Below, piece after piece: positions 3,278-57,140 of a stretch of DNA of 64,000 nucleotides. A program made the translations under genes and the position numbers. This DNA comes from Xestospongia bergquistia (lineage: Eukaryota > Porifera > Demospongiae > Haplosclerida > Petrosiidae). The stretch is from NCBI GenBank assembly GCA_963965975.1, contig OZ014419.1, positions 1,798,001 through 1,862,000 on the forward strand, given 5' to 3'. Position 1 is the stretch's first letter. Every line of letters begins with the position of its first letter. A model generated the notes under the pieces. That model saw nothing but the letters and a program-made list of their open reading frames with translations, searched no databases and was not told where the DNA came from.

Positions 3278-6200
3278 GTACTTTTAATGTCTATTGTGAA
3301 CATGGATCTTTAAGGTTAGTAAATGGAGGTTCTGCTAATGAAGGAAGACTGGAGATTTGTATAAATTATGTTTGGGGTACAATATGTGATAACATTTACT
3401 CTTCTGATACTAACAATGCTAAAGTGGCTTGTAGACAATTGGGATATGAAGTGGATGGAGGACAAAGTGAGAATAAAAATATTACTACATACATTTCAAT
3501 ACTTAATAGATGTGACAAATGCATATAATGGACATGGTAGTGGACCAATATGGTTGAAGTACCCCCAGTGTACTGGTATTGAGAGTAACTTATTGGAATG
3601 TCCAAGAAGATATGATCTTGGCAATCCTTATGGTTGCTCTCACCCTGAAGATGTTAGTATAGTTTGTCCAGGTATAGATACTATACTATAATCACATAAT
3701 TATTATAATTTTATATTCTAGTTAACTCCTGTACACAAGGTGATGTTCGTCTCACTGATGGACTGGTACCAAATGAAGGAACAGTTGAAGTGTGTTATAA
3801 TGGAGCTTGGAATTCTCTATGTTATTATGACTTTGGCTATCAAGAAGCATTTGTAGTCTGTAGACAGTTAGGTTATCCAGCAACAGGTAATAATAATAAT
3901 AATAATAACAACAATATATTACTTGATCTTTGGTATATATAGGTGCACAGTCTTTATCATCTAACTACTTTGGTACTGGACATGGAATACCAACACTAAC
4001 TGACTGGAGATGTATTGGAAATGAAACAAAATTATTGGACTGCCTTCATACCAGTGGTTCATCTTGTTTCTCATATCCTGGTGTGTATCATAGAGCAAGT
4101 ATTAGATGTACAGAATTGATAGCGTCTGGTAATACTTATTTCATGATTAAAATATTCATTATTATGTAAATTTCACACATATAGACAGCTGTGCTACAAG
4201 TGGTAATATGCGTCTTGTTGGACCTAATGATGCTGAGGGCAGAGTAGAATACTGCAGTAATGGAGTTTGGGGGACTGTGTCCTATTATGGATTTGATGTA
4301 AATGATGGGAAAGTTATCTGCAGGAAACTTGGACATCAGGAACCTCGTAATTTGAATACAAATTTTGTAACTTATTTTATTAGTTATTTTATACAGGTGT
4401 ACTGATATTTAGAAATTATGGACAAGGATCAGGTCCTGTTCTTTTTGTATATCTTAACTGTAATGAAAAGAAGTTTACTCTGGATCACTGTAGTTTTGGC
4501 TTAGATCCTTATTATTACACTCACTCCACTGATGTTGCAGTGAGGTGTATGGAAAAGGGTATTGATAGAATATATACAAAGTCTGCAAACTTATATTAAT
4601 TAACCCTTCCTTAGTTTTCACTGGTTGTACTCATGGTAACATTAGATTAGTAAATGGTTCCACTTCACATGAAGGAAGAGTAGAAATATGTGTCGATGGA
4701 GAATGGGGAACTATCTGTGGTACCTCTTGGGATAGAGTAGATGCTCAAGTTGTCTGTAGACAACTGGGATATGTCCCAACATGTAAACTAGTATTCATTA
4801 GTGTATACATAATATTGACTGTGGATATTATAGGGGCATCATTTTATACTTCATCACAATTTGGAGATGGAAACTTACAACAACTTATTTGGAATGTCCA
4901 ATGTAGTGGTTCAGAGATATATCTACTGTCATGTAGTTATCAATATGATCCTAGTTCATCCTGTTATTATGGTCGTACTGCTGGAGTCAAATGTTATAGT
5001 AAGATAACATTAATATTTTGTACAAATAGAAATAATGATTTCAATATCTCTCAGACTCTACATACTGTACTGAAGGAGATATCAGACTAGTTGGAGGAAA
5101 TAGTTCAAATGAAGGAGATATACAAATATGTAGAAGTGGAGTATGGGGATTTATATGTGGTGATTACTGGCATTGGTTTTGGTATTGGTATTACTCAGCA
5201 AACATGATTGTTACATGTAGACAACTGGGATATCACAGTGATAATAACTGTAAGTTTAATTTCCATCATAATATTTTAACTATTCTTTATTTGAAGGGAT
5301 TGCTACTAGTTGGTATTCATTCTTTGGAGGAAATCAAGACAATGCACCAATAGTATGGGATGGATTTAACTGTGTAGGCAATGAAACATCTTTAACTCAG
5401 TGCTCAAAGTATAACTATGGATATTATAGTACATGTACACAGAGTGCAGTAATCCATTGTGCAGGTCAAACTTGCTACTACATTTAACACTAGTTACAAT
5501 ACTTTCTTTATATCTACAGATGTAGTCAACTGTACTAATTGGTCAGTTCGTTTAGTGGATGGAGAAAGTGATAATGAAGGCAAAGTTGAGATATGTATAG
5601 ATGGAATATGGATGACAACAGAGGCAAATTATTGGTCTTATTCTCATGCTAAAATTGTATGTAGACAACTTGGATATTATGACAAATGTAAAATAAATGT
5701 TTTATATGATAGTGAATACTTTAGCATACTGTAGGGTCAGTAGCTATCACAGATATAATTTGGAAAACTAAAAGTAAAAGAGTTGGCTATCAATATTTTG
5801 GTTGTACTGGAAATGAAACATCACTGAGTAATTGTTCTTATTATTATGATCCATGGTATTATAAAGGGATAGCTTACTGGTATGACAAAATCAGAGCAGG
5901 TGTAGAATGTCAGATGAAATTACAATCAGGTATGATATCAGTACAACACTATGGATTATCTTCATTACTTTACAGAGTCATGTACAAATGTTGGAGATAT
6001 TCGTTTGTCTGGTGGTAGTCAATTAAATGAGGGTAGAGTTGAAATATGTCTTGATGGATACTGGGGTAGTGTATGTAGTAATGGATGGGATGAACAAGAT
6101 GCTCTAGTAACATGTAGACAAGCTGGATATCAGACATTAAGTGAGGAATTCACTAGTCAATGAAGTGACCATTATCTTCTATATATACAGGAGCTATTCC

Positions 6201-8740
6201 AATGTATGGTGCATTCTTTGGAAAAGGAGTTGGACCCGTTCATATGACATCTGTTGGTTGTCATGGCAACGAGAACAATCTAACTGAGTGCTCTTATATG
6301 AGTGGTATAGGAGTAGATAATTGTTATCATGGTAAAGATGTAGGAGTCATCTGTTTAGGTAAAGAGTAAGAGAGTCATTATAATATATTTCCTCTAAAAC
6401 AATAGATACTGTTTATTTCTATAATGTCACTATATCATTGAGTTCAGACCAGTCCTCTGTAATTATTGGTAGTAATGTGACACTTCATTGTAATGTATCT
6501 CCAAGACCTCCTATTAACACTACTTATCAATGGAGGACTACTGTGTCAGGAGTTACGTTATCACAACCTATTTCTACCTATTCCAATGTGATATTGACTG
6601 TTCCTACAGGACATACACAACAAGGGAATTACTACTGTATTGTTAAATATAATGGAGCAACATTAGGGAGAGGACATACTCAAATTTCTGTAAAAGGTAA
6701 TATAATATAGCCATTTTCTTTATAACTATTATTAATTAGATATTCTTAATGCTGTTGGCAATAAAGTAAAATCTACTGTTATTGGGTCTAATGTCAACCT
6801 CACAGTTGATATAACTGATAGATTTATTATTGACTATCTTCGTGAACTCAATTGGTATCATAATGATCAACAGATTGTTAATACCTTCAACAAGTACAGT
6901 ATTACAAATGATAACAAGACACTGATTATTACTAATATTACTAAAGAAGATGTAGGAGAATACTCTGTTAAATATGATGGTCTCAGACTGTATCAGTACA
7001 ATAGAGACTGTGAACAGAAAGTCCTACAACTTTTAAGACACTATCCAGTATTGAGTCCTACTGTGTTCTATGTCTCTGTTGAGGGTAAGCTAGGACACTT
7101 TATATAACTAGTGTAAACTTTTTATTAATTTAGGAGATGGATATGATATTACAAAGTCATCTAGATGTTCAAATTCTACTTATCCTGTCACTGGTTTTAA
7201 TAAGACAACTCAGAAAACTGTAGTCATTAGTTTTCTTAATACGAACAACCAATACAGTAATAAAGCACAAGTATTTTGGTATCATAATGGTAATAAGGTT
7301 ACCTCAGGAATGACCAGTAGTCATTTGGGGTTATATTGTGAACCATATTATAGTTTGAGTATTAATAATCCTACTGTGTTACACTCTGGATATTATGAGT
7401 CTCAACTAACTGTTACATCTTCAACAGTACTCTCATCATTGAGTTGTAGTAATTCATATCAAAATTTCCTGACTTCTTCCAATTATCTCAATTTATCAAC
7501 TATTGTCATAGATTCTATAGTACAAAGACTGGAATACTATGGTTAGTATTAATACAACTAAATATAACATTATGATAAAATGTTTATTATAGAAACTCCA
7601 TCAGTAAACTTGATAACAGATAAAACCAGTTTTAACTCAACATCTAATGCTGAATTAGTGTGTTCAGCTAGTGGTGGTTATCCTCTATATTATAACATTA
7701 CATTGATGAAGAATGGACTGTCTATTGCTAACACTATTGGATCATCTCAATTAGTCTATAATACTGAGGAAGATCAAACTGGTAGTAAATATGGAGTGTA
7801 TAAGTGTATAGTCAATAATACAGTCATTGAGATTGAATCAAGTGTATATCTAAAGGAAGAAGGTTAGATATTCATAATAATAATTATTTTAATATTTTGT
7901 TTTTAGCTAAATTATCTCTGTATTTACAAGCTGACAGTTGTCATCAATGGAATGTAAGAGATTATAACAAAAGATTAGTCTCAAGTTTTCATCACCTTAG
8001 GATCTTCAAATTCCAGCAATAGAGTTTGCTATAAAGGAACATGCTCAAATATCATGTAGTTGTTCATTAGTTAATAGTTCCTTTAATAACAGTACTCAAT
8101 CATGTTCTAACAACAATCTGACTTTCTCCTCTACTTTCATTTATTCTTCTAGTAATGGTCTCTTTATAGCGTCAGAGATAGTTGAACAACTAGAGAGAGA
8201 TTTCAGTCTAGGAAGGAATGCAACTTTAATAGTTAATGGACAACAATTAATAGCACTAACCAGTACCAACTTAAATCAAAAGGAGAGCAATAATAATGGA
8301 ATTTTGACAGGACTGTTCTTTGCTGGATTCACTAGTGCTACAATACTATGTGTAATAATCATTATTATAATCATGTAAGTATATATTATCTTATAAATTA
8401 ATAACAATTTTATGTATTGTATAGTGTTTTGTTGTTGAAATCAAGAAAAGTTAGACCAACAAAGACTTCAAAACCACAAAAGGAAGTACAATACAATGCA
8501 AAGTCTATGTCTGTATCTATCTGTAGTAATGAGGTACTAAATGATACAGCACTTTATAGTATACCACGTTACCACCATATTGGGCAAACATCAAGTAAAG
8601 GTCTCAAGGCAGTCAATAATTCTCAACAAACAAAACCAAATATTACTACAGTTACACTCTCAAATGAGAAATTCAAAGGAAATGAAACAATGATGTCAAC
8701 ATATGAAGACATGGATCATTATGAAGGACTGTATAATTAA
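3278..8740 (+). CDS. R1: SRCR x7 - Ig x4 transmembrane receptor, subfamily A, 5' exon missing
   Basis: Predicted type I surface receptor; ligand unknown. Exons: 3278-3466, 3510-3671, 3722-3886, 3943-4128, 4185-4346, 4397-4558, 4615-4782, 4834-4998, 5055-5249, 5297-5464, 5520-5687, 5735-5929, 5976-6140, 6191-6358 (seven SRCR domains, two exons each); 6406-6696, 6740-7084, 7134-7541, 7593-7862 (four Ig-like domains); 7907-7953 and 8001-8374 (juxtamembrane module and TM helix starting GILTGLFFAGF); 8425-8740 (tail). All phases agree, giving about 1,489 open codons. SRCR hallmarks such as VWGTIC and CRQLGY are clear, and Ig1 keeps the C..W..YYC pattern. The tail ends TYEDMDHYEGLYN: two close YxxM/YxxL motifs, not an ITAM. 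The signal-peptide exon upstream has decayed, so the copy may be non-secreted, use an unseen exon, or be a young pseudogene. Confidence 0.82.
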
Positions 8741-10092
8741 CTTTCAATGTTATATGTCATTGTTTGCAGTATATATAGTTTACTTTCAATGTTTTTATAG
8801 TTAGTTGTTAAAAAGTTTAGTCTAGTGACCAAGACACTTGCTGGTTTACAAGATTGGTCATTCATTATCTAAAATATTGATTTCTAATACAGGATACATA
8901 GTACTTGTATAAGTGATCATAACAATATATCCAGTTAAAAGGTAATCCTAAGCCATTTATCTCAAACGAAGATAGTTAATTTTTTATGAGGATAGGACTA
9001 GATATGGGACACAAGACCTTAGGACCACATGTTGGTATGACAAATGAACCTGTAATTGTTATTATATAATGACTAACTACCTTTAAAACCACTATTAATT
9101 GTGCTTATAAAATTTACCAATTTTAAATGTTATTATTTTAGCATGCATTCTGTGTCACTTCCAATTGAATCCTATAATTTTATGCATATGTGTCATGTAA
9201 CTAATTTATACTAAAATAAAACCCCACCCACTAAATCTTCTTATATAATAAACTGCAGGTGTAAAATATACTAAAAGTATTATACCAATAAGTTCTATTA
9301 ATATTTTAATTTAATACACCACTCTAATTTTACAGTTGTCACTAAATTGCTAAAATATTAAAATATGCATTTAATTAAGGTACATTAATGTACATAAACA
9401 AAATAATAATAATATTTATAAACATGAATAAAATTTAACTCTTTCTTCTTTATGAACTCTTGTCACAATAGTTTATGAATTTTATTGTGAAACTATTTAT
9501 GAGAAGTATAACTGTTAGCTCTTTAACTCCATCAAACTATAGTCTATTCGCCTTCACCTTGCCAGTATAAAAATATTATCATAACTTTCTAATAACTCAA
9601 CCAAATTCAAAATTTCAAAGTCAAGTGGTCTCCTGACGACCATTCTATTCTTTGACGTCATTTTTTATATGATACGGCCCACAATAGCTTGTACTTAGGG
9701 ATGTGATCTCGTGAATTTCGTTATTCAATAAAATGGCTGCTGCTTGAAGAGAGAAACCAGTACCGTAAGAAATACATTCTAACTGTAAAAGTTTAATCAC
9801 ACAGATATAGGTAAAAGTACAGTATTACTGTAGCTAATAATTTTGTTCTCACAAAAAAAGAAAATTAATTCTATACACAGACACGTAGACTTCTATTTTC
9901 ATGTGATAACTCAAAGAAAACATTTCATTTGTAATGTGTGGTATGTGTAATTTATACTACTTACACCCACTACTAATTTCCGCCGGGAAGGTGAACGCAA
10001 ATAGATTGGTTACATAGAAGGTATAATTCACTGACACAGATTGTACTAGCTATAATTTTGTGCTAGCTCTGGCAGGTACATGTAATATAAAA
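8741..10092. other. R1-R2 spacer, no gene recognised
   Basis: AT-rich. Possible poly(A) signals for R1 occur (for example AATAAA near 9214). A short CpG-containing patch from about 9,630 to 9,760 holds a perfect CRE palindrome TGACGTCA (9653-9660). No coding exon is supported. Confidence 0.5.
9653..9660. promoter_or_regulatory. CRE palindrome TGACGTCA
   Basis: Exact 8-bp ATF/CREB consensus in a locally CpG-bearing patch. No start of a gene could be attached to it; R2 starts 2 kb downstream with its own TATA box. Confidence 0.35.
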
Positions 10093-10240
10093 TTATGACC
10101 ATGGATCGTTAAGGCTAAACAATGGAAGTGCTACTACTTGATGACAACTGGAATTATGCATGATTATTGGGGTACAAGGGGAGGAGGGGCATGACGAATG
10201 TTCTGCTATTGATTAGCAAGACGTATTGGAATATAGCATC
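10093..10240 (+). pseudogene. Relic of a first-half SRCR exon
   Basis: The run GACCATGGATCGTTAAGGCT followed by AACAATGGAAGTGCTAC and later GATTATTGGGGTACA matches the start and middle of the SRCR1 first exon (GAACATGGATCTTTAAGGTT, TGGGGTACA). It is frame-disrupted and lacks the CRQLGY end. Upstream remnant of a lost array member. Confidence 0.55.
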
Positions 10241-11667: not shown

Positions 11668-17231
<5,564 letters not shown>

Positions 17232-18276: not shown

Positions 18277-18321
18277 ATGGAGTTACTTATTTCAATCATC
18301 TTATTGGCCTTTGTTTTAAAG
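18277..18321 (+). pseudogene. Relic signal-peptide exon with relic promoter
   Basis: ATGGAGTTACTTATTTCAATC and the following bases match the R4/R5 signal exons ([10 protein letters not shown] type), and the preceding 40 bp match the R5 promoter (TTTGTGTAGTTC, TTTATCATGG). One base is deleted and the donor GGTGA has become GATGT, so it cannot splice normally. No SRCR exon follows. Confidence 0.75.
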
Positions 18322-18940
18322 ATGTACACTCACTAAAAGTATACTGACTAATGTAACTTTGTTTTTATTCTGACCTTTCCTTCATATTAATGTAATGTCA
18401 TTGAAACGTGATAGTCTATTACTGAATGATTGTAGTATTTGAATAAGGAGAATGATCCCAGGATTAAATATCCATGCAAGAAACAGAAAATCCTATGACA
18501 TTATGGCTGGACTACAATATTTATGATATTGGATTTACTGCACTGTAGGTTGCTTCTTCATATAAGTTAATAAAATACTACACACATAAGTTTGTTACAT
18601 TTTGTGCCACAAACACTATATACAAATATTACAGGCACTACAGACACTGCAGATATATACTAAAGCATAATTTAAATACTGTGAACACCACAATACATAT
18701 GAAGAAGCAATCCCATTGCATCATTGGAGTTGTCATTATAATTGGAATGTAGGTCATCATGTGTTTAGTGATATGTCCACAATGTTACCCTTTAATTGAG
18801 CAAATGACAGAGAGACAAGAAGACTATCTACGGTTAGCCTGCTAAACTATATAACATGTATAGCTATCATTATTAAGTTACGTTTAATAAACTAGGCCTA
18901 ATCTAGACTTAGAATTTGGTATCAATAATTTAGTCTGCTT

Positions 18941-19010
18941 TTCTTTGCTATGTCTGTTAGTGCTACAATACTATGTGTGGAGTAATCATCACAACGATTA
19001 TAAAACACAG
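18941..19010 (+). pseudogene. Relic of a subfamily A transmembrane exon
   Basis: TTAGTGCTACAATACTATGT and the run that follows match the TM coding stretch of R1-R3 (residues like SATILCVIII), but the frame is disrupted. It is an isolated fragment. Confidence 0.6.
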
Positions 19011-29131: not shown

Positions 29132-29134
29132 ATC

Positions 29135-37751: not shown

Positions 37752-37898
37752 AGGTAATAACATGATAACAATTATCTGTTCCTATACCACTGATATAAGA
37801 GCATCAATATCCTCATTGTCATACCAACACATCTTATGAACTGATCCAATTCCCCTCCCAAAGAATACATCATACACTGGAATAATTCCTATACATAG
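37752..37898 (-). pseudogene. Antisense relic of SRCR7 second exon, second copy
   Basis: Closely matches 28185-28341, so both descend from one duplicated spacer. It has its own small deletions. Confidence 0.75.
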
Positions 37899-38278: not shown

Positions 38279-38286
38279 TATATAAA
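38279..38286 (+). promoter_or_regulatory. TATA box of R5
   Basis: TATATAAA 56 bp before the R5 ATG, in a block shared with the R4 promoter and with the relic promoter before 18277. Confidence 0.6.
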
Positions 38287-38334
38287 CAGTTTGAGTTACT
38301 TTGTGTAGTTCATGTTAATATGATGTATTTTATC

Positions 38335-41300: not shown

Positions 41301-43514
41301 TCACTAGTTAATGAAGTGACCATTACCTTCTACATAATATATAGGAGCTATTCCAATGTATGGTGCATTCTATGGAAGAGGAGTTGGACCAGTTCATATG
41401 ACATCTGTTAGTTGTCATGGCAATGAGAACAGTCTAACTGAGTGCTCTTATATGAGTGGTATAGGAGTAGATAATTGTTATCATGGTAAAGATGTAGGAG
41501 TCATCTGTTTAGGTGAAGAGTAAGAGAGTCATTATAATATATTTTCTTTAATACAATAGATTCTCCTGTTTTCTATAATGTCACTATATCATTGAGTTCA
41601 GACCAGTCCTTTATAATTATTGGTAGTAATGTGACACTTTATTGTAATGTCTCTCCAAGTCCTCCTATTAACACTACTTATCAATGGAGGACTACTGTGT
41701 CAGGAGTTACATTATTACAACCTATTTCTACTTATCCAAATGTGACAATGACTGTTCCTACAGGACATACACAACAAGGGAATTACTACTGTATTGTTAA
41801 ATATAATGGAGCAACATTAGGGAGAGGACATACTCAAATTTCTGTAAAAGGTAATATAACATAGCCATTTTCTTTATAATTATTATTAATTACATCTTCT
41901 TAATCCTGTTGGCAATAAAATAAAATCTACTATTATTGGGTCTAATGTCAACCTCACGATTGATATAAATTTTTTTACTGACTATCTTCGTGAACTCAAT
42001 TGGTATCATAATGATCAACAGATTGTTAATACCTTCAACAAGTACAGTATTACTAATGATAATAAGACACTGATTATTACTAATATTACTAAAGAAGATG
42101 TAGGAGAATACTCTGTTAAATTTGATAGTCTCAGACTCTATCAGTACAATAGAGACTGTGAACAGAAAGTCCTACAACTTTTACAACACTATCCAGTATT
42201 GAGTCCTACTGTGTTCTATGTCTCTGTTGAGGGTAAGCTAAGACACTTTGTATAACTAGTATAAACTTGTTAATAATTTAAAAGATGGAGATGATATTAC
42301 AAAGTCAACTAGATGTTCAGTTTCTACTTATCCTGTCACTGGTTTTAATAAGACAACTCAGAAAGCTATAGTCATTAGTTTTCTTAATAAGGACAAACAA
42401 TACAGTAATGAAGCACAAGTATTTTGGTATCATGATGGTAGTAGGGTTACTACAGGAATGACCAGTAGTCACTTGGGGTTATATTCTAAACCATATTATA
42501 GTTTGAGTATTAACAATCCTACTGTGTTACACTCTGGATATTATGAGTCTCAACTAACTGTTACACCTTCAACAGTACTGCCATCATTGAGTTGTAGTAA
42601 CTCATATCAAGACTTCCTGACTTCTTCCAATTATCTTAATTTATCAACTATTGTCATAGATTCTATAGTACAAAGACTGGAATACTATGGTTAGTACTAA
42701 TGCAACTAAATATAACATTATGATTAAATCTTTATTATAGAAACTCCATCAGTAAACTTGACAACAGATAAAACCAGTTTTAACTCAACATCTAATGCTG
42801 AGTTAGTGTGTTCAGTTAGTGGTGGTTATCCTCTATATTATAACATTACATTGATAAAGAATGGACTGTCTATTGCTAACATTATTGGATCATCTCAATT
42901 AGTCTATAATACTGAGGAAGATCAAACTGGTAGTAAATATGGAGATTACAAATGTGTTGTGGACAATACAGTTATAGTGGTAAAAACTGCTATAGTAACA
43001 TTAACAGAGGACACTAGTAACACAACATCAAAAACTGATGCTGGTACTGCTAATAGTGATAGCTTGTTAGCTGGGCTTTTTACAGCTGGATTCTTTAGTT
43101 CAGCCATTGTATTTGTGATTGTCATTGTGATTGGATTGTAAGTCAAAACTGAATTTATATGTTTTAATTTTAATATTTTTCAGAGTTTGTTTTGCAATAC
43201 TCCGTCGTAATACTACAGAAAAGAACAATGAATCAGAGAGTGTTTCAAGTCAAGGTGTTAGGGTACCAGATACCAGCCTACAAATAAATAAAGAAGTATT
43301 TAATAAAGATCCACAACCTTTTAGTGTACAAAAACCAGCAATGAAGTTCAAGTCTGTCGACACATCCAAAGTTCAGCTGGCAAATCCTATTAATAAAAAA
43401 GCAGGTACAAAACCATCAATCAGACCAAAGCCTGAGCTTAAGGCTAAAGATGAAGAATATGTAGATATGCTAGAGGGAGCAGAAGTTTATGAATCCATAA
43501 ACGTCTATGACTAA
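38335..43514 (+). CDS. R5: SRCR x7 - Ig x4 (Ig2 splice acceptor lost) receptor, subfamily B
   Basis: Exons: 38335-38380, 38452-38631, 38675-38845, 38897-39061, 39112-39297, 39352-39528, 39579-39740, 39784-39951, 40003-40188, 40234-40407, 40455-40622, 40678-40845, 40889-41074, 41127-41291, 41345-41512, 41560-41850, (41894-42232), 42285-42689, 42741-43137, 43184-43514. Signal peptide [15 protein letters not shown]. The acceptor before Ig2 reads TTAC instead of TTAG, and no other AG lies suitably placed. Skipping Ig2 keeps frame because both neighbours are phase 1, so the likely product is 1,297 aa with three Ig domains (1,410 aa if Ig2 is somehow used). The Ig3 acceptor has shifted 3 bp in frame. 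Ig4, a short stalk and TM share an exon. The tail is YVDM, six residues, YESI (ITAM-like with Met first). Everything else is open. Confidence 0.86.
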
Positions 43515-43719: not shown

Positions 43720-45645
43720 ATAGCGATATGTCACGCCCCCTTTTGTGGATTATTTGAAGGAGAGACCACAAGAACACTTATCGCAACCCCAAGAGCTCCT
43801 CCCTGGGGGAAGATCCTCCTGCAGAAGAAGGAGGGATTTTGTCTTCGACATAATATAATTCTACTGTGGCGGTTTACTGATGATCAGTGAACAACAGATC
43901 TTAGTAATGCAATTTTATTAACATAAAATAATGACTTCTAGGAATGGAAGACTGGTCAAAGCAAAACCTCAAGAGGTAAACAATAAATTAATCCTTTGTA
44001 ACAAGAGTCATCACATTAAATATTACAGTGAATGTCTTCATTCACTGTCACAGCTGCTTTTGTCAAATATGATAATAAGTTCTTTCTATATTTTACAGTT
44101 ACTGGAAACTATTGATTCTGAAAGTCCAACTTCAAATGGTTCACTTCAAAAATGAAGAGAGTATTTGGATCTCCATTGATGAAGAAAAGAAGATCACAGT
44201 CATTGGATATTCTAGGTTAGAGATATGACTCTCTATATTGAATGTCTTTGTTATATACTCTACCAATTTCTTTATGTAAACTTATAATCATAGATAGCAT
44301 GTACTGATTTAGTAATAACTTTCTCACTCAGTTCTAAGATAGGAATAAGGTTTTTTTTCTTTTGCTTTGCAGGTAGTACTTTAACCTTTGGAGTCCCTCT
44401 AACACACCTGCTAACAACATCAGAGGATCCACGAAAGGTTTCTTCTCCAACTGATACCCACCAACCCATAATGCAATCGAATATCCCTCTTATCGTTCAG
44501 AAAATATAGGAACATATTGAAGAACATGGTAAGATCACAGGCTACTTATTAATAGTAACAGGCATTCATATACGAATCAGAATATTTTCAGATAACATCC
44601 ATATAATTCTCAGTCATGTATACAGAAATAATTCAGAATATTTTCAGATTACTAGGCCCAGTAGTGCACAGAGACGATTGCCAGATCTTCTAATTCCAGA
44701 TGCAACAACTAATAAAATTGTTGACTTGCAGGAAAGTGAGTACCACACCTACTTTTACAGGATCATAATTATTAATCATTCCAATCTATAGCCATAGGAG
44801 GATCCTATACATCAAGTACTATTACTACTCTAAAGAATATTTTATCGACATTACCCAAACCACACTATCATCTCTTGAGCTATCTCTGTAGACATCTTCT
44901 TCTAGTATCAGAGCACTCAGGTACATTATATATCAAATATTACCTTCACTGCCTTATCTTTATATTTAAGATACTAACAAGATGACTTCTGTGTCATTAT
45001 CCATTGTATTTGGTCCTAATGTCTTCAGGTATATAGTATATAATGTATATTATAATATCTATTGTGTTATAAGATGTGGAGGAGAACTAATTGGTTTAAG
45101 GAAACAAGGATATGCTAACTCAGCATTTGCTCAAATGATAATAAACTATCATTCTTTATTTGAAAATAAATTGGTAAGTAACTGGACACACACATACACA
45201 CACACTCTTTCTCTCTCTTTCTTTCTCACTCTCTTCATAATGATCTATTAAACCAGGAACTCAACAAAATGAGAACAATCAGTGAAGTATCTGATGATGT
45301 CTTTCTGTCTCCAGTAAGTACAAAAGCTCCTACAGACTTTACAAATTATCATCAGTACATTGCTGAGAAGCATCAGAAAACTGATACACCAGTAAACTAT
45401 ACTATATTATGTCGTCACATATAGCTCACATTTACATTTGTTTCTAGACTGGTGACATGGATATTCACACTTCAATGAGTACTGATATCTCTAAAGATGA
45501 AATGGAGCCAGTCTCTCCTCATGAGCATAGTGTTGATGAGGCCATAGATGAAGCAATAGTAACTGTTGCAGCAGAACATGAAGAGATGAAAATAAAGAGA
45601 AAGAAAAAAGCTGAAAATTGGTAAGAAAATACAACATGAGTACAA
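43720..45645 (+). pseudogene. Truncated FAM13-like RhoGAP pseudogene
   Basis: Second copy of the gene at 57595-63727. Exon 1 starts at ATG 43931. Exon 2 (from 44099) lost one base near 44139, giving a TGA at 44152-44154. The third exon (44374-44522) is present with a damaged end. The fourth exon, which carries the arginine finger EGIYR and the LLKLFL segment, is absent; the copy jumps to the next exon (44672). The exons equivalent to 58866-59795 follow with a 27-bp in-frame deletion. It then ends at the donor after AAAAGCTGAAAATTG near 45620, and 3' of that the DNA is spacer and tandem repeat. It cannot encode an active GAP. Confidence 0.88.
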
Positions 45646-45699
45646 TGATGATGTAATCAACCATAAACCATATCAGCTAAGTGTCATTCTAGTAGTGTT

Positions 45700-46173: not shown

Positions 46174-46690
46174 GACCAACTAAAACTAAACTAAAAATTA
46201 TCATTTCCAGACAACTAAAACTAAACTATAACTAAAATTTTTAGCTGTCAAAAACTAAAATAATACTAAAATTAAAGCTGACATTATGTTATTTTACTAA
46301 TATTAACTAATATTAATAGACTGACAAACCACAACTTAGAACGTGAAGTCCTTCTTAGAAAAACAGAAAATATGTGTATCTTTGATCTGTCATTATTTCA
46401 TTGCCTTTTCTTACATGATTGAAAAATTAAGTGAATCAAGTAAACTAATATTAACTAAAGTAGAAAACTATATTAAGTTACTAAACTAATACTAACTAAA
46501 ATTGTTTCGTCAACTCCTTACTAAAACTACTAAAATAAAATAAAAATCAAATTGAAAAACTAAACTAATACTAACTAAAATTACTTTTGCTGGTTGCATA
46601 CTAAAACTAAACTAAACTAAAATGTATTTTATAACCATTCACTAATACTAAACTAAACTAAACTAAAATGTATTTTATAACCATTCACTA
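46174..46690. repeat. Degenerate CTAAA-rich repeat, ending in 41-bp units
   Basis: The CTAAAACTAAA motif continues irregularly with single-copy islands. The last about 90 bp are two units of the 41-bp repeat (TGTATTTTATAACCATTCAC core) that resumes at 51225. The LTR element is inserted in this array. Confidence 0.8.
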
Positions 46691-46980
46691 TGTGGTAACT
46701 TAAACCACTGAATTCACAAAATATGATTTAGAAATAAATCTTTCTATCTCTCTATATTCAATAACAACATCAAGCAAGTTTATATAGAAAACTCAACAAA
46801 GAAAGGTGTAACTAAAAAGTAACACATAGCATAAAAGAAAGAGTATTAACACAACTAACATATAACAAAAGAAACATAGTAAGCACCTATTAACAAATAC
46901 ACAGTAAATCAAACATAACAAAAGATACAATTATACACAATAAGTAAGTGCTAAGTAATATACAATTACAGTATATTACA
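46691..46980 (-). repeat. 3' LTR (element orientation)
   Basis: 290 bp, same sequence as 50935-51224. Preceded in element orientation by the polypurine tract. Confidence 0.95.
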
Positions 46981-46993
46981 TTCCTCCCTTTTT
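46981..46993 (-). other. Polypurine tract
   Basis: On the minus strand AAAAAGGGAGGAA directly abuts the 3' LTR. This is the priming site for plus-strand DNA synthesis in LTR elements. Confidence 0.85.
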
Positions 46994-47013
46994 AAATTGA
47001 ACTAATTGAGTTA

Positions 47014-50000
47014 TTAAAAATATCGATCAGGAGGTCGAGAAATTCTTGTTGAACGACGTAATGTAGGTTGGGGTGCTTCAACTGAAACAGGTGATGAATC
47101 TTCATGTAAAGGAGGTGTTGGGATAGAGATATCAGCTAAGTCATCATCAGAAACATTTAACGGAGCTGATACATCAGTAGGAGGTGAACATGAATTAGAT
47201 GTACATGCTCGAATATGGTCAACATGTCGTCGAACAATTCGTCCATCCTCAAGTTCCACTAAATAGGAACATGGACCTTTAGTAGATATAATTTTTCCAG
47301 AGAGCCAATGTTTACGATCTGGAAAATCACAAATAAATACAAAATCACCAACCTGAAATGTTCTCTCTTTAGAACGAACATCATGGTTTTCTTTCTGCTT
47401 TTCTTGCTTTCTAAGCACTCTTCCCGCTAAAGTTGGCTTCAGTAAGTCCAAATGTGAACGTGGAAGTCTACTGAATAAGAGTTCAGCTGGGCTAGTGCCA
47501 GTTGTTGTATGAGGAGTAATACGGTAGCTAAAGAGAAAACGAGCTATACGAGTATTGAGAGAGTCTTTTGACTGTTTCCTCATGCTTTCTTTAAATGTCT
47601 GAACAGCTCTCTCTGCCAGCCCATTAGATGCTGGGTGATATGGAGCAGACTTAACGTGACGTACTCCATTTCTCTTCATGAATTCCGCAAATTCAGTACT
47701 TGTAAATGCAGTGCCATTGTCAGTAACTAGCACTTCAGGTAAACCGTGTATGGAGAATATAGATCTGAACTGTTCAATTGTTGAGAGAGATGTAGCAGAA
47801 CTCACAGGTATAACTTCTAGCCATTTCGAGTAAGCATCTACGACGATAAGAAACATCTTACCTAAAAATGGACCTGCATAGTCTGCGTGTAACCGTGACC
47901 ATGGACGTTCTGGCCATTCCCACGGGTGTAGAGGAGCTGGTGGTGGACGATGTCTAGTACTCTGGCAATTGAAACATTCTTTCACCTTTTTCTCTAAGTC
48001 ATTATCCATGCCAGGCCACCATACAAAACTTCGAGCGAGGCTCTTCATCCGCGAGATACCTGGATGACCTTCATGAAGTTCGTCGATGACTTGTTGTCGT
48101 CCACGCGGTGGTACAACGACTCGATTACCCCAAAGAATACAACCACTCTCGATGCTAAGTTCGTTTTTACGCTGTTGGAATGGTTTTAGAGAATTGTCAG
48201 AGGTGTCTCTCCAACCATGGAGGATAAAATCTTTGACTTTAGCTAACAATGGATCACGAGCTGTCCATTGTCGAATTTCATTGGCAGTAATTGGAGAAGA
48301 TTGTAGAGCACTCATCAATAAGACAGTTTCACCAGGGGTTGGAACATTAGTAGGGAAGTCCGGAAGTGGAAGACGACTCAGTAGGTCAGCATTAGCATGC
48401 TGTTCTCCAGGCTTGTATGATATGGAGTAATCATACGCACCAAGGACCATTGCCCATCTTTGGATTCTAGCAGATGCCATTGTAGGAGTTCCTTTAGTTT
48501 CACTGAATAAATGTTGAAGGGGCTTGTGATCAGATAGTATAGTGAAGTGACGACCAAATAGGTACTGATGAAATTTCTTCACTCCAAACACAATAGCAAG
48601 TCCTTCTTTCTCGATTTGCGAGTACTTTCGTTCAGCTGGTGCTAACGATCTGGAGGCGAATGCGATGGGTTTGTCCAGACCATCTGGCATGCGATGAGAT
48701 AGAACGGCTCCGATTCCATATGGTGAGGCATCACAGGCTAAAATCAGTTCCTTTTCTGGATCAAAGTGAACGAGAACATGGTTAGAGGTGAGCATAGATC
48801 GGGCCTTTTCAAAACACTTCTGTTGTTCTGATCCCCAAGACCATGGTGTTGTTTTCTGTAGCAACCTGTAGAGAGGGGAAAGAACATGAGATAGATTAGG
48901 TAAAAATGTACTATAATAGTTAATGAGTCCGAGAAATGATTTGAGTTGTGAGACATTTTTGGGTACTGGTGCATTCTTTATAGCGGTGATCTTTTCATCG
49001 GTGGGTTGAAGACCCTTCTCTGATATCTTGTACCCTAAGTACTCCACAGATGTTAACATGAAAGAGCACTTCTCTCTTTTTAGACGAAGTCCAGCTTGTT
49101 CTAGACGTTGTAGTACAGTTTCCAGATTATAGAGGTGTTCATCCGTGGATTTTCCTGTGACCAAAATATCGTCGATGTAAACTGTGACGCCAGGTAAACC
49201 CTGTAGTATATTTTCCATCGTTCGTTGAAAAATCGAGGGAGCTGATGCAACTCCAAACGGTAGACGATTGTAGCGATAAAGTCCTTTGTGTGTATTGACT
49301 GTCACATACTGCTTAGAGTCTTCTTCCAAGGGGATCTGTTGATATGCATGAGCAAGATCAAGTTTGGAGAATGTTGTTCCTCCAGATAAAGAGGCAAACA
49401 AATCATGAATTCTCGGGAGTGGGTATGTATCTGTTTTAGCAGCTTGATTGACAGTTAGTTTATAATCTCCGCAAATACGAACTGATCCATCCTTTTTCAC
49501 GATTGGAACAATTGGTGCAGCCCAATCAGAGAATTGCACTGGTTCGATAACGCCATTTGCTTGTAGACGATCAAGCTCGCGTTCGACCTTCTCTCGTAAG
49601 GCATAGGGGACTGGACGAGCTCGTAGAAATTTCGGTTTTATACCAGACTTGAGATAAAATTTAGCTGTAGTTCCTTGAACTCTTCCCAGCTCGTCTTTAA
49701 AGGCATCTGGATGACGATCAATGACATCTTGCCACTGACTCTTTGGTCCTGCCACACTAAAAGCATATAGCCCCGACCAGTCTAGTTTGATCTGCTGTAG
49801 CCAGTCACGACCTAACAGTGATGGGCCATCTCCTGCAACTACTAACAGCGGTAACCGTCTCTTTTGAGTCTGGTAGGTCACATTGACATCAATAGACCCT
49901 AATACCTTAATCTGTTCACCAGTATACGTTTTTAACGTAGCGTGAGCGAACTTTAACAACGGAGCCAGCTTTTGTGTGGGCCATAGCCTCTCGTATGTCT

Positions 50001-50913
50001 TTTTGCTGATTATAGATAGAGTAGCTCCTGTGTCGACTTCCATCTGTAAGTCGGCGTTATTTATCTTCACTTTCACTGTAAGTGGGTGGTTTTTGCCTGT
50101 AGTGAGAGCATGCAAGGGATACTCCACTTCATCGGGTTCAGCAACAGTGTTTGTACCATGTGGAGTCGCCGTACGTTTACCATGTTGACTCCATGTCTTC
50201 TTACGGCAAACTTTGGATATGTGTCCTTTCTTGTGACAAAGGTGACACTCCGAGTCCTTAAATCGGCATTCCTTGGGCTCGTGCTTTCCGCCACAACGAA
50301 AACACGGTACAATCTGTGGAATTGTGTCTTGTCTCTTGGGTCTCTGGGATTGCCAAGGCTTGCGGACATGGTGTATCTTTGTAGCACCTTGAAGTTCTTT
50401 CACTTGGCTGTCTGCTGATTCTAGTGCTAGAACAATTTTCATAGCACTCTTGTACGTGAGATCTTCCTCACCGAGTAGACGACGCTGCCAGCGTTCGTTG
50501 CCTATTCCGCAAACAATACGATCACGGAGCATCGGTTCGAGCGTATCTCCAAAATTACAGAACTCAGCCAGCTTTTTCAGCTCAGCTACATACATCGAGA
50601 CTGATTCGCCTGCTCTTCGGGTCCTGGAGTAAAACAGGTATCGTTGTACCGTCTCAGAAGGAGTCGGGTGAAAATGTGTCCTCATTTGTGTGACAATGTC
50701 ATCAAAAGGGACGTCTGTAGGCCTATTAGGGGCCAGTACATTTTTGATGAGTCGATAAGTTGATGCACCACAGCAGCTAAGAAGGATTGCCCTTTGCTTT
50801 TCCGCATCTTGGACATCATTTGCTGTGAAGTATTGCTCTAGACGCTCAGTGTACGTCTCCCATTCTTCCTGAGTACTGTCGAACTCTCCCAGGTGACCAT
50901 GTGTAGCAGCCAT
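47014..50913 (-). CDS. gag-pol: Gag-pol polyprotein of Ty3/gypsy element
   Basis: Single 1,299-aa frame, starting at the ATG 22 bp from the LTR edge. An 18-bp upstream extension has no ATG and overlaps the primer site. Order: Gag region (about aa 1-200), two CCHC-type zinc knuckles (about 204-236; the first has the spacing C-x2-C-x3-H-x4-C), aspartic protease with DTGA (D294), reverse transcriptase with the YIDD box (about 579-582), RNase H (CDASPYGIG, about 727), and integrase with an HHCC zinc finger (about 950-985) and catalytic D1011, D1065, E1101 (35 residues between the last two). A C-terminal GPY/F-like stretch (KGPCSYLVELEDG) follows. No stops or frameshifts, so it could be active. 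It copies the element RNA and integrates the product. Confidence 0.95.
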   Translation of the reverse strand: MAATHGHLGEFDSTQEEWETYTERLEQYFTANDVQDAEKQRAILLSCCGASTYRLIKNVLAPNRPTDVPFDDIVTQMRTHFHPTPSETVQRYLFYSRTRRAGESVSMYVAELKKLAEFCNFGDTLEPMLRDRIVCGIGNERWQRRLLGEEDLTYKSAMKIVLALESADSQVKELQGATKIHHVRKPWQSQRPKRQDTIPQIVPCFRCGGKHEPKECRFKDSECHLCHKKGHISKVCRKKTWSQHGKRTATPHGTNTVAEPDEVEYPLHALTTGKNHPLTVKVKINNADLQMEVDTGATLSIISKKTYERLWPTQKLAPLLKFAHATLKTYTGEQIKVLGSIDVNVTYQTQKRRLPLLVVAGDGPSLLGRDWLQQIKLDWSGLYAFSVAGPKSQWQDVIDRHPDAFKDELGRVQGTTAKFYLKSGIKPKFLRARPVPYALREKVERELDRLQANGVIEPVQFSDWAAPIVPIVKKDGSVRICGDYKLTVNQAAKTDTYPLPRIHDLFASLSGGTTFSKLDLAHAYQQIPLEEDSKQYVTVNTHKGLYRYNRLPFGVASAPSIFQRTMENILQGLPGVTVYIDDILVTGKSTDEHLYNLETVLQRLEQAGLRLKREKCSFMLTSVEYLGYKISEKGLQPTDEKITAIKNAPVPKNVSQLKSFLGLINYYSTFLPNLSHVLSPLYRLLQKTTPWSWGSEQQKCFEKARSMLTSNHVLVHFDPEKELILACDASPYGIGAVLSHRMPDGLDKPIAFASRSLAPAERKYSQIEKEGLAIVFGVKKFHQYLFGRHFTILSDHKPLQHLFSETKGTPTMASARIQRWAMVLGAYDYSISYKPGEQHANADLLSRLPLPDFPTNVPTPGETVLLMSALQSSPITANEIRQWTARDPLLAKVKDFILHGWRDTSDNSLKPFQQRKNELSIESGCILWGNRVVVPPRGRQQVIDELHEGHPGISRMKSLARSFVWWPGMDNDLEKKVKECFNCQSTRHRPPPAPLHPWEWPERPWSRLHADYAGPFLGKMFLIVVDAYSKWLEVIPVSSATSLSTIEQFRSIFSIHGLPEVLVTDNGTAFTSTEFAEFMKRNGVRHVKSAPYHPASNGLAERAVQTFKESMRKQSKDSLNTRIARFLFSYRITPHTTTGTSPAELLFSRLPRSHLDLLKPTLAGRVLRKQEKQKENHDVRSKERTFQVGDFVFICDFPDRKHWLSGKIISTKGPCSYLVELEDGRIVRRHVDHIRACTSNSCSPPTDVSAPLNVSDDDLADISIPTPPLHEDSSPVSVEAPQPTLRRSTRISRPPDRYF

Positions 50914-50919
50914 TGAGAC

Positions 50920-50930
50920 CCTCGTCGCCA
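50920..50930 (-). other. tRNA primer-binding site, Ser(GCU) type
   Basis: On the minus strand TGGCGACGAGG starts four bases after the 5' LTR. It is complementary to CCTCGTCG plus CCA, the 3' end expected for a serine tRNA whose 5' strand is CGACGAGG-like (GACGAGG in tRNA-Ser-GCU). Ser-tRNA priming is common among Mag-type gypsy elements. Confidence 0.75.
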
Positions 50931-50934
50931 AATA

Positions 50935-51224
50935 TGTGGTAACTTAAACCACTGAATTCACAAAATATGATTTAGAAATAAATCTTTCTATCTCTCTATA
51001 TTCAATAACAACATCAAGCAAGTTTATATAGAAAACTCAACAAAGAAAGGTGTAACTAAAAAGTAACACATAGCATAAAAGAAAGAGTATTAACACAACT
51101 AACATATAACAAAAGAAACATAGTAAGCACCTATTAACAAATACACAGTAAATCAAACATAACAAAAGATACAATTATACACAATAAGTAAGTGCTAAGT
51201 AATATACAATTACAGTATATTACA
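50935..51224 (-). repeat. 5' LTR (element orientation)
   Basis: 290 bp, appears identical to 46691-46980 when read side by side, which indicates a recent insertion. Confidence 0.95.
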
Positions 51225-51896: not shown

Positions 51897-54800
51897 ATGA
51901 AGTTGCTTATTTTGATAATCTTGTTGTTCTTATGTTTTAAAGGTAATCTCTTTATCATAATTATATATACTCAGTAAGTTTGACTATTCTCTGTTTTCAG
52001 GTCAATGTAATGACTATTGTGAACATGGATCTTTAAAGCTGGTAGATGGAGGTACTTATAATGGACGACTGGAGATTTGTATAAACTTTGTTTGGGGTAC
52101 AGTATGTGATGACTCATTTGACACTATTGATGCTAAAGTGGCTTGTAGACAACTGGGATATGAAGTGGATGGAGGACAAAGTGAGAAGAAAATATTATTA
52201 CTAACTTTTAATACTTAATAGCTCTGACATATTATACAAATGCATATTATGGACAAGGTAGTGGACCAATATGGTTGAATCGTCTCTATTGTACTGGTAC
52301 TGAGGGTAGTCTTTTAGAGTGTGAAAGAAGATATGATATTGGCTATCCTTATCATTGCTCTCACTATGAAGATGTTAGTATAGTTTGTCCAGGTATAGAT
52401 ACTATACTACTAATCACATAATTATTATAATTTTATATTCTAGTTAACTGTACACAAGGTGATGTTCGTCTCACTGATGGACTGGTACCAAATGAAGGAA
52501 CAGTTGAAGTGTGTTATAATGGAGCTTGGGATTCTGTGTGTGATAGTTATTGGGGCTATCAAGAAGCATTTGTAGTCTGTAAACAGTTAGGTTTTCCATC
52601 AACAGGTAATTAATAATAATAATAATATATTACTTGATGTTTGGTATATATAGGTGCAGAGTCTTTATCATCTAACTACTTTGGTACTGGACATGGAATA
52701 CCAACACTAACAAACTGGAGATGTTTTGGAAATGAAACAAAATTATTGGACTGCCTTCATACCAGTGGTTCTTCTTGTTTCTCATCATCTGGTATGTATC
52801 GTAGAGCAAGTATTAGATGTACAGGAATGATAGTGTTAGGTAATATTTATTTCAAGATTAAAATGTTCATTATTATGTAAATTTCACACATATAGACAGC
52901 TGTGGTACAAGTGGTAATATGCAGCTTGTTGGACCTAATGGTCCTAATAAGGTAGAGGGCAGAGTAGAGTACTGTAGTAATGGACTGTGGGGGACTGTGT
53001 CCTATTATGGGTTTGATGTAAATGATGGGAAAGTTGTCTGCAGGAAACTTGGATATCAGGAACCACGTAATATGAATATAAAGTTTGTAACTTATTTTAT
53101 TAGTTATTCTGTACAGGTGTACTGATATTTAGAAATTATGGACAAGGATCAGGTCCTGTTCTTTTTACAGACCTTAACTGTAATGGAAATGAGTTTACTC
53201 TGGATGACTGTAGTTTTGACTTATATCCTTATTGGTATGATTATTATTACAGTCACTACTATGATGTTGCAGTCAGGTGTATGGAAAAAGGTTTTTAATG
53301 ATTTGTATTATATCATTCAACATATCTTCATAGTTCCCACTGGTTGTACTCATGGTAACATTAGATTAGTAAATGGTTCCACTTCACATGAAGGAAGAGT
53401 AGAAATATGTCTCAATGGAGAATGGGGAACTATCTGTGATTACTCTTGGGACAGAAGAGATGCTCAGGTTGTCTGTAGACAACTGGGATATGTCCCAACA
53501 TGTAAACTAGTATTCATTAGTATATACATAATATTAACTGTGGATATTATAGGGGCATCATTTTATACATCATCACAATTTGGAGATGGAGACTTACAAC
53601 AACTTATTTGGGATGTCCAATGTAGTTATGGTGGTTCAGAAACATCTCTACTGAATTGTAGTCCAAAAAATTCTTCATCCTGTAATAATCATTATGGTTG
53701 TTCTTATTGTTATTATGGTCATACTGCTGGAGTCAGATGTTATAGTAAGACAATTTCATCATTAAAACTGCAATGACTATGACTTATGCATTCATTCAGA
53801 CTCTACATACTGTACTGAAGGAGATATCAGACTAGTTGGAGGAAATAGTCCAAATGAAGGAGATATACAAATATGTAGAAGTGGAGTGTGGGGATTTATA
53901 TGTGATTACCGCTGGCAATACACAGGAAATAGGAATGTTGCATGTAGACAACTTGGATACTCTAACAACAACTGTAAGTTTAATGCCCACCAAAATATTA
54001 TTCAGATTTAACTATTCTTCATTTGAAGGGCATGCTTATAGTCGGTATTCATTCTTTGGAGGAAGTCAAGACACTGCACCATTAGTATGGGATAGAGTTA
54101 ATTGTGGAGGTAGTGAAACATCTCTAACTCAATGCTCAAAATATTACTATGGATATAGAAGAACTTGTACACAGACTGCAGGAATCTATTGTGCAGGTCA
54201 AAATTTTGCTACTATACTAACAGTAATTCAATTCCTTTATAACTACAGATGTAGTCAACTGCATTAATTCGTCAGTTCGTTTAGTGGATGGAGAAAGTGA
54301 TAATGAAGGCAAAGTTGAGATATGTATAGATGGAATATGGATGACAACAGAGGCAAATTATTGGTCTTATTCTCATGCTAAAATTGTATGTAGACAACTT
54401 GGATATTATGACAAATGTAAGATAAATGCTTTATATCATAATGTGTACTTTAGTTTACTGTAGGGTCAGTAGCTATAACAGATATAATTTGGAAAGCTAA
54501 AAGTAAAAGAGTTGGCTATCGATATTTAGGTTGTACTGGATATGAAACATCACTGAATAATTGTTCTCATTATTATAATCCATGGTATCATACAGATTTG
54601 ACATACTGGTATGACAAGATCAGAGCAGGTGTGGAGTGTCAGTTGAAATCACAGTCAGGTATGATATCAGTATAACACTATGAATTATCTTTATTATTTT
54701 ACAGAGTCATGTACAAATGTTGGAGCTATTCGTTTATCTAATGGAAGTCAATCAAATGAGGGTAGAGTTGAGATATGTCTTGATGGATACTGGGGTAGTG

Positions 54801-57140
54801 TGTGTAGTACTGGATGGGATGAACAAGATGCTCTAGTAACATGTAGACAAGCTGGATATCAGACATTAAGTGAGGAATTCACTAGTTAATAAAGTGACCA
54901 TTACCTTCTGTATATACAGGAGCTATTCCAATGTATGGTGCATTCTTTGGAAGAGGAGATGGACCAGTTCATATGACATCTGTTAGTTGTCATGGCAATG
55001 AAACTAATCTAACTCGGTGCTTTTATATGAGTGGTATAGGAGTAGATAATTGTTATCATGGTAAAGATGTAGGAGTCATCTGTTTAGGTAAAGAGTAAGA
55101 AAATTATTATGTATTTTCTTTAATACAATAGATTCTCCTGTTTTCTATAATGTCACTATATCATTGAGTTCAGACCAGTCCTCTCTAACTATTGGTAGTA
55201 ATGTGACACTTCATTGTAATGTATCTCCAAGTCCCCCTATTAACACTATTTATCAATGGAACACCACTGTATCAGGAGTTACATTATCACAACCTATTTC
55301 TACTTATCCCAATGTGACATTAACTGTTCCTACAGGACATACACAACAAGGAAATTACTACTGTATTGTTAAATATAATGGAGTAATATTAGGGAGAGGA
55401 CATACTCAAATTCCTATTAAAGGTGAATCATAGCCATTTTCATTATAACTACCATTACTTCTTATATAGATCTTCTTAATCCTGTTGGCAATAAAGTAAA
55501 ATCTACTATTATTGGGTCTAATGTCAACTTCACAGTTGATATAACTGATAGTTTTATTACTGACTATCTTCGTGAACTCAATTGGTATCATAATGATCAA
55601 CAGATTGTTAATACCTTCAACAAGTACAGTATTACTAATGATAATAAGACACTGATTATTACTAATATTACTAAAGAAGATGTAGGAGAATACTCTGTTA
55701 AATTTGATGGTCTCAGACTGTACCGCTACAATAGAGACTGTGAACAGAAAGTCCTACAACTTTTAAGACACTATCCAGTATTGAGTCCTACTGTGTTCTA
55801 TGTCTCTGTTGAGGGTAAGCTAGGACACTTTATATAACTAGTATAAACTTGTTAATAATTTAGGAAATGGAGATGATATTACAAAGTCATCTGCTGCTAG
55901 ATGTTCAGTTTCTACTTATCCTGTCACTGGTTTTAATAAGACAACTCAGAAAGCTGTAGTCATTAGTTTTCTTAATGAAGACAAACAATACAGTAATGAG
56001 GCACAAGTAATTTGGTATCATGATGGTAGTAGGGTTACCTCAGGAATGACCAGTAGTCACTTGGGGTTATATTCTAAACCATATTATAGTTTGAGTATTA
56101 ACAATCCTACTGTGTTACACTCTGGATATTATGAGTCTCAACTAACTGTTACACCTTCAACAGTACTGCCATCATTGAGTTGTAGTAACTCATATCAAGA
56201 CTTCCTGACTTCTTCCAGTTATCTTAATTTATCAACTATTGTCATAGATTCTATAGTACAAAGACTGGAATACTATGGTTAGTACTAATACAACTAAATA
56301 TAACATTATGATTAAATGTTTATTATAGAAACTCCATCAGTAAATTTGACAACAGATAAAACCAGTTTTAACTCAACATCTAATGCTGAGTTAGTGTGTT
56401 CAGTTAGTGGTGGTTATCCTCTATATTATAACATTACATTGATGAAGAATGGACTGTCTATTGCTAACATTATTGGATCATCTCAATTAGTCTATAATAC
56501 TGAGGAAGATCAAACTGGTAGTAAATATGGAGATTACAAATGTGTTGTGGACAATACAGTTATAGTAGTAAAAACTGCTATAGTAACATTAACAGAGGAC
56601 ACTGTCAACATTACCAACACTACCAACACAACATCAAAAACTGATGCTAGTACTGCTAATAATAGTGATAGCTTGTTAGCTGGGCTGTTTATAGCCGGAT
56701 TCTTTTGTTCAGCCATTGTATTTATGATTGTTATTGTGATTGGATTGTAAGTCAAAACTGAATTTATATGTTTTAATTTTAATATTTTCAGAGTTTGTTT
56801 TGCAATACTCCGTCGTAATACTACAGAAAAGAACAATGAATCAGAGAGTGTTCGTTACAGTTTAAGTCAAGGTGTTAGAGTACCAGATACCAGCCTACAA
56901 ATAAAGAAAGAAGTATTTAATAATAATCCACAACCTTTTAATGTACAAAAACCAGCAATGAAATCCAAGTCTGTTGACACATCCAAAGTTCATCTGGGAA
57001 ATCCTAATTATATAAAAGCAGGTACAAAACCACCAATCAGACCAAAGCCCGCATTTAAAGCCAAAGATGAAGAATATGTAGATGTGCTAGATATAGCAGA
57101 GGAAATGGAAGCTTATGAATCCATAAACATCTATGACTAA
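51897..57140 (+). CDS. R6: SRCR x7 - Ig x4 transmembrane receptor (subfamily B)
   Basis: Complete gene, 20 exons, 1,434 aa. Exons: 51897-51942, 52001-52180, 52222-52392, 52444-52605, 52654-52839, 52896-53066, 53117-53290, 53334-53501, 53553-53744, 53800-53973, 54029-54196, 54249-54416, 54464-54658, 54705-54869, 54920-55087, 55132-55422, 55470-55814, 55864-56277, 56329-56746, 56792-57140. Signal peptide [15 protein letters not shown], as in R2; SRCR1-7 to about aa 829; Ig1-4 about 830-1265; Asn/Thr-rich stalk with several N-x-T sequons; [20 protein letters not shown]; tail about 1318-1434. The tail has RYSL near the membrane, a Pro-rich KPPIRPKP stretch, then YVDV, nine residues, YESI. It is followed 454 bp later by the RhoGAP gene on the same strand. 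Confidence 0.91.

Follow-up and report, generated by a model that had tools for sequence, protein, structure and literature searches.

A tandem cluster of six putative SRCR-Ig receptor genes with two tyrosine-bearing C-terminal classes in the sponge Xestospongia bergquistia

Layout, domains and integrity of the six copies

We examined a 64,000-nucleotide stretch of the genome of the sponge Xestospongia bergquistia (contig OZ014419.1, positions 1,798,001 to 1,862,000; hereafter the window, with positions counted from its first letter), an AT-rich segment (GC 0.30-0.40 per 4 kb) that carries a tandem array of genes predicted to encode receptors with SRCR and Ig domains. Self-comparison revealed six head-to-tail copies on the plus strand, each ~5.2-5.7 kb long and sharing long blocks that are 81-91% identical (~3.2-8.7, 11.7-17.2, 21.1-26.7, 29.1-34.4, 38.3-43.5 and 51.9-57.1 kb; g1 to g6 in that order). 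Initial gene models came from a codon-score splice search, and final exon borders were taken from a MAFFT alignment of the six loci. Splice modelling and the six-way alignment placed homologous exons in all six copies, namely 14 SRCR exons, four Ig exons and then a transmembrane (TM) and tail part, with modelled introns of 41-78 bp. Every intron from the signal exon to Ig4 is phase 1; SRCR half-domains and Ig1-3 are therefore each encoded by a symmetric 1-1 exon, and each SRCR domain is split over two phase-1 exons. These results bear out the six tandem plus-strand receptor genes described in a sequence-only reading of this DNA; judged by self-comparison and exon homology, the six copies form a genuine cluster of putative receptors.

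The copies divide by their C-termini into class A (g1-g3) and class B (g4-g6), and all lie on the plus strand. In class A, g1 (3278-8740) comprises 14 SRCR exons at 3278-6358, Ig1-4 at 6406-7862, a stalk/TM part at 7907-8374 and a tail at 8425-8740. The second copy, g2 (11698-17231; 1508 residues), starts with a signal exon (11698-11743) that is followed by SRCR (11795-14819), Ig1-4 (14865-16331), stalk/TM (16378-16832) and tail (16883-17231) parts, and g3 (21065-26731; 1530 residues) has the same arrangement (signal exon 21065-21110, SRCR 21161-24257, Ig1-4 24305-25761, stalk/TM 25807-26272, tail 26329-26731). In class B, the signal, SRCR and Ig1-3 exons precede a joint Ig4, stalk and TM exon and then the tail, at 29135-29180, 29250-32318, 32366-33507, 33559-33985 and 34034-34394 in g4 (29135-34394), at 38335-38380, 38452-41512, 41560-42689, 42741-43137 and 43184-43514 in g5 (38335-43514), and at 51897-51942, 52001-55087, 55132-56277, 56329-56746 and 56792-57140 in g6 (51897-57140; 1434 residues).

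Five copies (g1, g2, g3, g5 and g6) were submitted to Pfam, and seven SRCR stretches were found in every one of them (434-460 bits against a cut-off of 26; E = 8e-133 to 6e-141); the count for g4 rests on exon homology. A PDB search with the SRCR part of g2 gave CD163 structures as the best match (E = 4e-128). Among the Ig exons of g1, Ig1 and Ig2 scored above the Pfam cut-off, Ig4 fell below it and Ig3 matched no Ig family, placing only these first two of the four exons in the Ig superfamily. The third Ig exon of g2 matched antibody light chains weakly among PDB sequences (best E = 3.2e-4), and its fold prediction was unusable (mean predicted local distance difference test score, pLDDT, of 32). 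A simple hydropathy scan predicted a single TM segment near the C-terminus in 6/6 copies, followed by a tail of ~90-120 residues with tyrosine motifs at its C-terminal end. An N-terminal hydrophobic segment exceeded the hydropathy threshold in g2, g3 and g6, and fell below it in g4 and g5 despite the presence of exon 1. The sequence-only reading had given the order as seven SRCR domains, four Ig-like domains and one TM and had proposed a domain search as a check: the seven SRCR domains, the four Ig-type exons, Ig1 and Ig2 of g1 and the single TM held up, and the weak places are Ig3, which was unmatched in g1, and Ig4.

One copy of the six, g1, carries an aromatic-rich insertion (approximately WHWFWYWYY) in its SRCR5 loop (first SRCR5 exon at 5055-5249). 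In the three copies counted, the first 1360 residues hold 49 (g3), 30 (g6) and 24 (g2) N-glycosylation sequons. A search for relatives returned no match in viral genome contigs and, in prokaryote genome contigs, four pattern matches of which none was confirmed.

As read, three of the six copies (g2, g3 and g6) are intact, being fully open with all modelled splice sites preserved. The remaining three bear lesions, which corrects the sequence-only reading. The signal-exon match of g1 (3166-3206) has no ATG, nor does the same frame back to the upstream stop codon, and the first exon of this copy may lie farther upstream. In g4, GA replaces GT at the SRCR1 donor (position 29430) and an in-frame stop interrupts SRCR5 (exon 31262-31429). 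The Ig2 acceptor of g5 reads AC instead of AG (41892-41893), and the 220 bp examined hold five AGs, none of which could serve to restore the reading frame.

Two C-terminal classes and exchange between copies

Identity of the C-terminal part was 70-77% within g1-g3 and 88-92% within g4-g6, and between the classes it was 46-49%, which is no meaningful alignment. In class A separate exons encode a Cys-containing stalk and the TM, whereas in class B the Ig4 exon itself continues through a Thr/Ser-rich stalk and the TM. A SEA-like fold considered for the class A stalk was dropped, the prediction being unusable (mean pLDDT 37). There are 104 class-diagnostic columns in the alignment (columns 600-5560), and 76 of them lie at or after column 5314; a further 22 fall within the 200-column bin at 2200, and the remaining 6 lie outside both. 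We located the class junction within the Ig4 exon, at 16266-16331 (plus strand) in g2 and starting at 56533 in g6. Upstream of the junction, copies of this exon share 96-98% identity whether compared between or within classes; across the junction, between-class identity drops to 80% and then to 50%, whereas within-class identity stays at 96-100%. The tails, which had earlier been treated as one kind, are thus of two unalike classes.

The g2 tail ends in YETL-x8-YEEL-YR and contains a strict immunoreceptor tyrosine-based activation motif (ITAM; YxxL/I-x6-8-YxxL/I), YETL-x8-YEEL, at 17175-17222 on the plus strand (coordinates counted back from the stop codon). This is the only strict ITAM among the six tails, and a strict ITAM arose at a frequency of 0.00045 when the last 100 residues of g2 were shuffled. 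The other class A tails read YETM...YEAM-x9-YEGL-YS (g3) and YEDM-x2-YEGL-YN (g1). Class B tails follow the consensus YVD[M/V]...YE[P/S][M/I], with YVDM-x6-YEPM-x2-YELTQ in g4, YVDM-x6-YESI-x2-YD in g5 and YVDV-x9-YESI-x2-YD in g6. A looser tyrosine pair was present in 5/6 tails (shuffle frequency 0.011-0.050 each), which are not independent observations because the tails fall into two families. No immunoreceptor tyrosine-based inhibitory motif (ITIM) was found in the last 110 residues of any of the six. The immune-type tyrosine tails first proposed persist as tyrosine motifs in general and as a strict ITAM in g2 only.

We also compared the copies along their length. Introns of g3 were 0.42-0.91 identical to those of the other copies from within SRCR1 to SRCR6-7, and 0.88-0.96 from within SRCR7 to Ig4; exons showed the same pattern. 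From SRCR7 to Ig4, intron identity was 0.86-0.96 between classes and 0.82-0.96 within classes. In approximately unbiased (AU) tests, none of the 105 topologies survived in all seven segments, and 4/21 segment pairs shared no tree. Two of these four pairs include the upstream/signal segment, in which the alignment of several copies is poor (many pairs at 31-51%), and the other two are Ig4 against SRCR1-3 and Ig4 against SRCR7-Ig1. Since the segments are short and bootstrap values ran from 28 to 100, single groupings are not to be relied on. Because the SRCR7-Ig4 introns are about as alike across classes as within them and no tree fits all segments, we conclude that ectodomain sequence has been exchanged between copies, with the tails remaining distinct. 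Despite their different tails, g2 and g6 have common upstream DNA (473 columns, 85%), and another upstream type is common to g4 and g5 (675 columns, 85%).

The most divergent domains among the copies are SRCR1-3, 5 and 6 of g3. Pooled for each ectodomain exon, the ratio of nonsynonymous to synonymous substitution (dN/dS) was 0.37-1.21 (the Ig4 value mixes both classes), being below 1 in 16/18 exons and above 1 in the first exons of SRCR2 and SRCR4.

Interpretation and comparison with known receptors

Reasoning from the anatomy, lesions, class junction, exchange and motifs read in the DNA to membrane topology, phosphorylation, partners, ligand and immune role, we hold with moderate confidence that the locus is a birth-and-death cluster of type I recognition receptors whose two C-terminal modules would give different outputs. 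The copies are most likely germline-diversified recognition receptors with alternative activating tails, and their anatomy makes an immune role likely. In the proposed mechanism, the SRCR1-6 head, the most divergent part, probably makes the ligand contact, and SRCR7 with Ig1-3 would be a common shaft in which gene conversion or unequal exchange maintains similarity. Two versions of the C-terminal module meet the ectodomain at a single point in Ig4: class A adds the Cys-containing stalk and ends in a tail with an ITAM or near-ITAM, and class B has the Thr/Ser-rich stalk and the YVD[M/V]...YE[P/S][M/I] tail. Ligand clustering would allow a Src-type kinase to phosphorylate the paired tyrosines. 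ITAMs recruit Syk and YxxM motifs recruit PI3-kinase; class A (g2, perhaps g3) would accordingly be expected to recruit a tandem-SH2 kinase such as Syk, and class B PI3-kinase or other SH2 proteins, such that similar ectodomains could yield different outputs. Proteins related to Syk have been reported from sponges (PMC9486129). The first interpretation of this locus, a recognition receptor complex, is supported in its clustered type I SRCR-Ig receptors, tyrosine tails and relics, and also by the damaged copies; its single kind of tail is not.

A bolder form of this interpretation, possible and rather doubtful, is that an early-branching animal has its own paired-receptor-like system: one SRCR7-Ig4 ectodomain family, homogenised by exchange, would carry two tyrosine-signalling ends at a single Ig4 junction, one of them with a self-contained ITAM, and similar ligands would trigger different signals, possibly in tissue self-recognition.

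Several observations weigh against a cluster of diversified receptors with alternative activating tails. Three copies (g1, g4 and g5) are damaged, the strict ITAM occurs in g2 alone, and the tails of g1 and g6 depart from the usual spacing or residues. The SRCR head has a dN/dS (pairwise 0.48-0.82) that is not above that of the Ig part (0.54-0.76). We detected no diversifying selection in the SRCR loops at the position of the metal site in known SRCR structures, when replacement counts were tested at 67 codons in 6/7 SRCR domains (SRCR6 was missed by the pattern); counts as high were reached in 893 of 5000 random placements. The putative ligand-binding heads differ between copies, and neither of these measures showed selection for difference. 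Finally, both classes look activating and have no ITIM, so the activating/inhibitory pairing of paired receptors is lacking.

In vertebrate receptors of the KIR, LILR and SIRP type, ectodomains are kept alike by exchange and tails differ, an activating form being paired with an inhibitory one. The sponge cluster has the ectodomains alike by exchange and the different tails; by this analogy it would work like a paired receptor family, but we do not file it as one. The CD163/WC1 family is defined by an SRCR-only ectodomain, and to our knowledge WC1 and CD163 have no Ig domains, whereas Ig domains follow the SRCR row here. Bovine WC1 and the CD163 family share with the present cluster multigene type I SRCR receptors and tyrosine motifs in the tail (PMC2906472), and WC1 is presented as a hybrid that acts both as co-receptor and as pattern recognition receptor, its key tyrosines being phosphorylated (PMC8356672, PMC3511184). 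Unlike that family, the sponge copies have each SRCR on two exons and switch tail class within an Ig exon. Botryllus FcoR, too, are type I receptors of an invertebrate that are encoded in a cluster and bear Ig domains and tyrosine motifs; they are described as proteins of 520-610 aa with both Ig and sushi domains and an ITIM or hemITAM (PMC12065747). In contrast, the present cluster has SRCR domains, 1434-1530 aa and no ITIM. WC1, Botryllus FcoR and the vertebrate paired receptors are each closer than Hydractinia Alr in one respect, with Botryllus FcoR and WC1 the nearest in logic. The likeness to Alr drawn in the sequence-only reading is a loose one, which extends to clustered Ig type I proteins and relics; we know of no SRCR domain in Alr proteins. 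ITAM and ITIM motifs are reported for Alr (PMC12065747).

Among sponges, Amphimedon queenslandica is credited with 296 SRCR genes, 158 of them in tandem arrays (PMC10855680). A sponge origin also fits the abundance of SRCR domains and the compact introns of the present locus. SRCR domains combined with Ig domains are recorded in sponges (PMC4772301, PMC6208332), and sushi, fibronectin and EGF are named as SRCR partners (PMC8242945). In the Amphimedon array that is detailed, genes differ from those here in having 2-6 SRCR each, and most SRCR in linked genes span three exons; the available text of this account has no mention of ITAM tails or tail classes (PMC10855680). No SRCR-Ig receptor with an ITAM was among the matches listed by title or abstract, a weak negative because most subscription journals lay outside the search. 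The family type is known, and the SRCR7-Ig4 order with two alternative tyrosine tails is new as far as could be searched.

Three other explanations were weighed. The best of them, though unlikely, is that these are scavenging or endocytic adhesion receptors, in which the SRCR head would capture microbes or debris and YxxO tail motifs would serve clathrin uptake and not ITAM signalling. The YxxO uptake signal is also matched by YETL, YEEL, YEGL, YVDM, YESI and similar motifs, and the YREM motif of CD163 serves uptake. In PDB the SRCR part has CD163 as its nearest match, and YREM is reported in the CD163 tail (PMC2906472). However, 5/6 copies have two tyrosines with ITAM-like spacing right at the C-terminus, which would be superfluous for one uptake signal, and two alternative tails on one ectodomain would fit signalling better.

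Less probable again, judged from a single haplotype, is an allorecognition locus, that is, a histocompatibility complex whose receptors would tell self from non-self when tissues touch, as with Hydractinia Alr or Botryllus fuhc. Type I receptors in a cluster, their Ig domains and tyrosine motifs, the relics and the sequence exchange among copies would all suit such a locus, as would the precedent of Botryllus FcoR with their Ig and sushi domains and ITIM or hemITAM tails (PMC12065747); yet no tail here has an ITIM, diversifying selection was not detected, and a word search of the main text of an A. queenslandica grafting transcriptome gave no hit for SRCR, for scavenger receptor or for receptor (PMC5450542).

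A decaying array of little present function, its copy number held by unequal crossing-over, is improbable: the lesions in 3/6 copies, several relics, fairly high dN/dS and a young retrotransposon between g5 and g6 point that way, but g2, g3 and g6 have uninterrupted reading frames and have lost no modelled splice site, the damaged copies bear one or two small lesions each (possibly sequencing errors), and dN/dS is below 1 in 16/18 exons.

If the favoured reading of recognition receptors with two signalling ends is true, part of the vertebrate paired-receptor logic (a shared ectodomain with a swapped tail) and a self-contained ITAM would be present in invertebrate SRCR-Ig receptors, and the cluster would offer a compact locus for testing the origin of non-self recognition in animals.

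Relics and neighbouring elements

We searched the window outside the six genes for relics, with the retrotransposon masked, and recovered pieces of several exons, in agreement with the relics between genes noted earlier. On the plus strand, a stop-containing relic of the first SRCR1 exon lies at 10073-10177. A decayed copy or copies between g2 and g3 (18277-20266) include a signal exon (18277-18382), a class A TM piece (18938-18989) and a class A stalk/TM with an in-frame stop (19944-20266), and a relic of the border between the SRCR2 intron and second exon lies at 27924-27985. Between g4 and g5 (35044-37416) are a class A 3' end (35044-35099), a class A TM/tail (35840-36258) and SRCR5-SRCR7 (36448-37416). 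Since a tail piece precedes SRCR5-7 at 35.8-37.4 kb, this interval probably holds remnants of two or more decayed copies. Putative relics of the second SRCR7 exon are inverted on the minus strand at 28189-28348, upstream of g4, and at 37758-37905, upstream of g5. These inverted copies, which may be relics or regulatory, are antisense to the gene family; they belong to a repeat whose two units (27984-28804 and 37561-38334) share 83% identity and closely precede g4 and g5.

Between g5 and g6, a Ty3/gypsy-type long terminal repeat (LTR) retrotransposon occupies 46689-51224 on the minus strand, with one open frame of 1309 codons and Pfam domains for protease, reverse transcriptase, RNase H and integrase. 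Its LTRs are identical at 292/292 bases and CACTA flanks both sides if the ends are set at TG..CA; the element is a recent insertion. After g6, a predicted gene on the plus strand (57743-63344; gene model rough) encodes a RhoGAP domain (Pfam E = 1.4e-21). A partial copy of this gene, 91-94% identical, lies after g5 at 44667-45654, indicating that a segmental duplication including neighbouring sequence accompanied the origin of g5 and g6.

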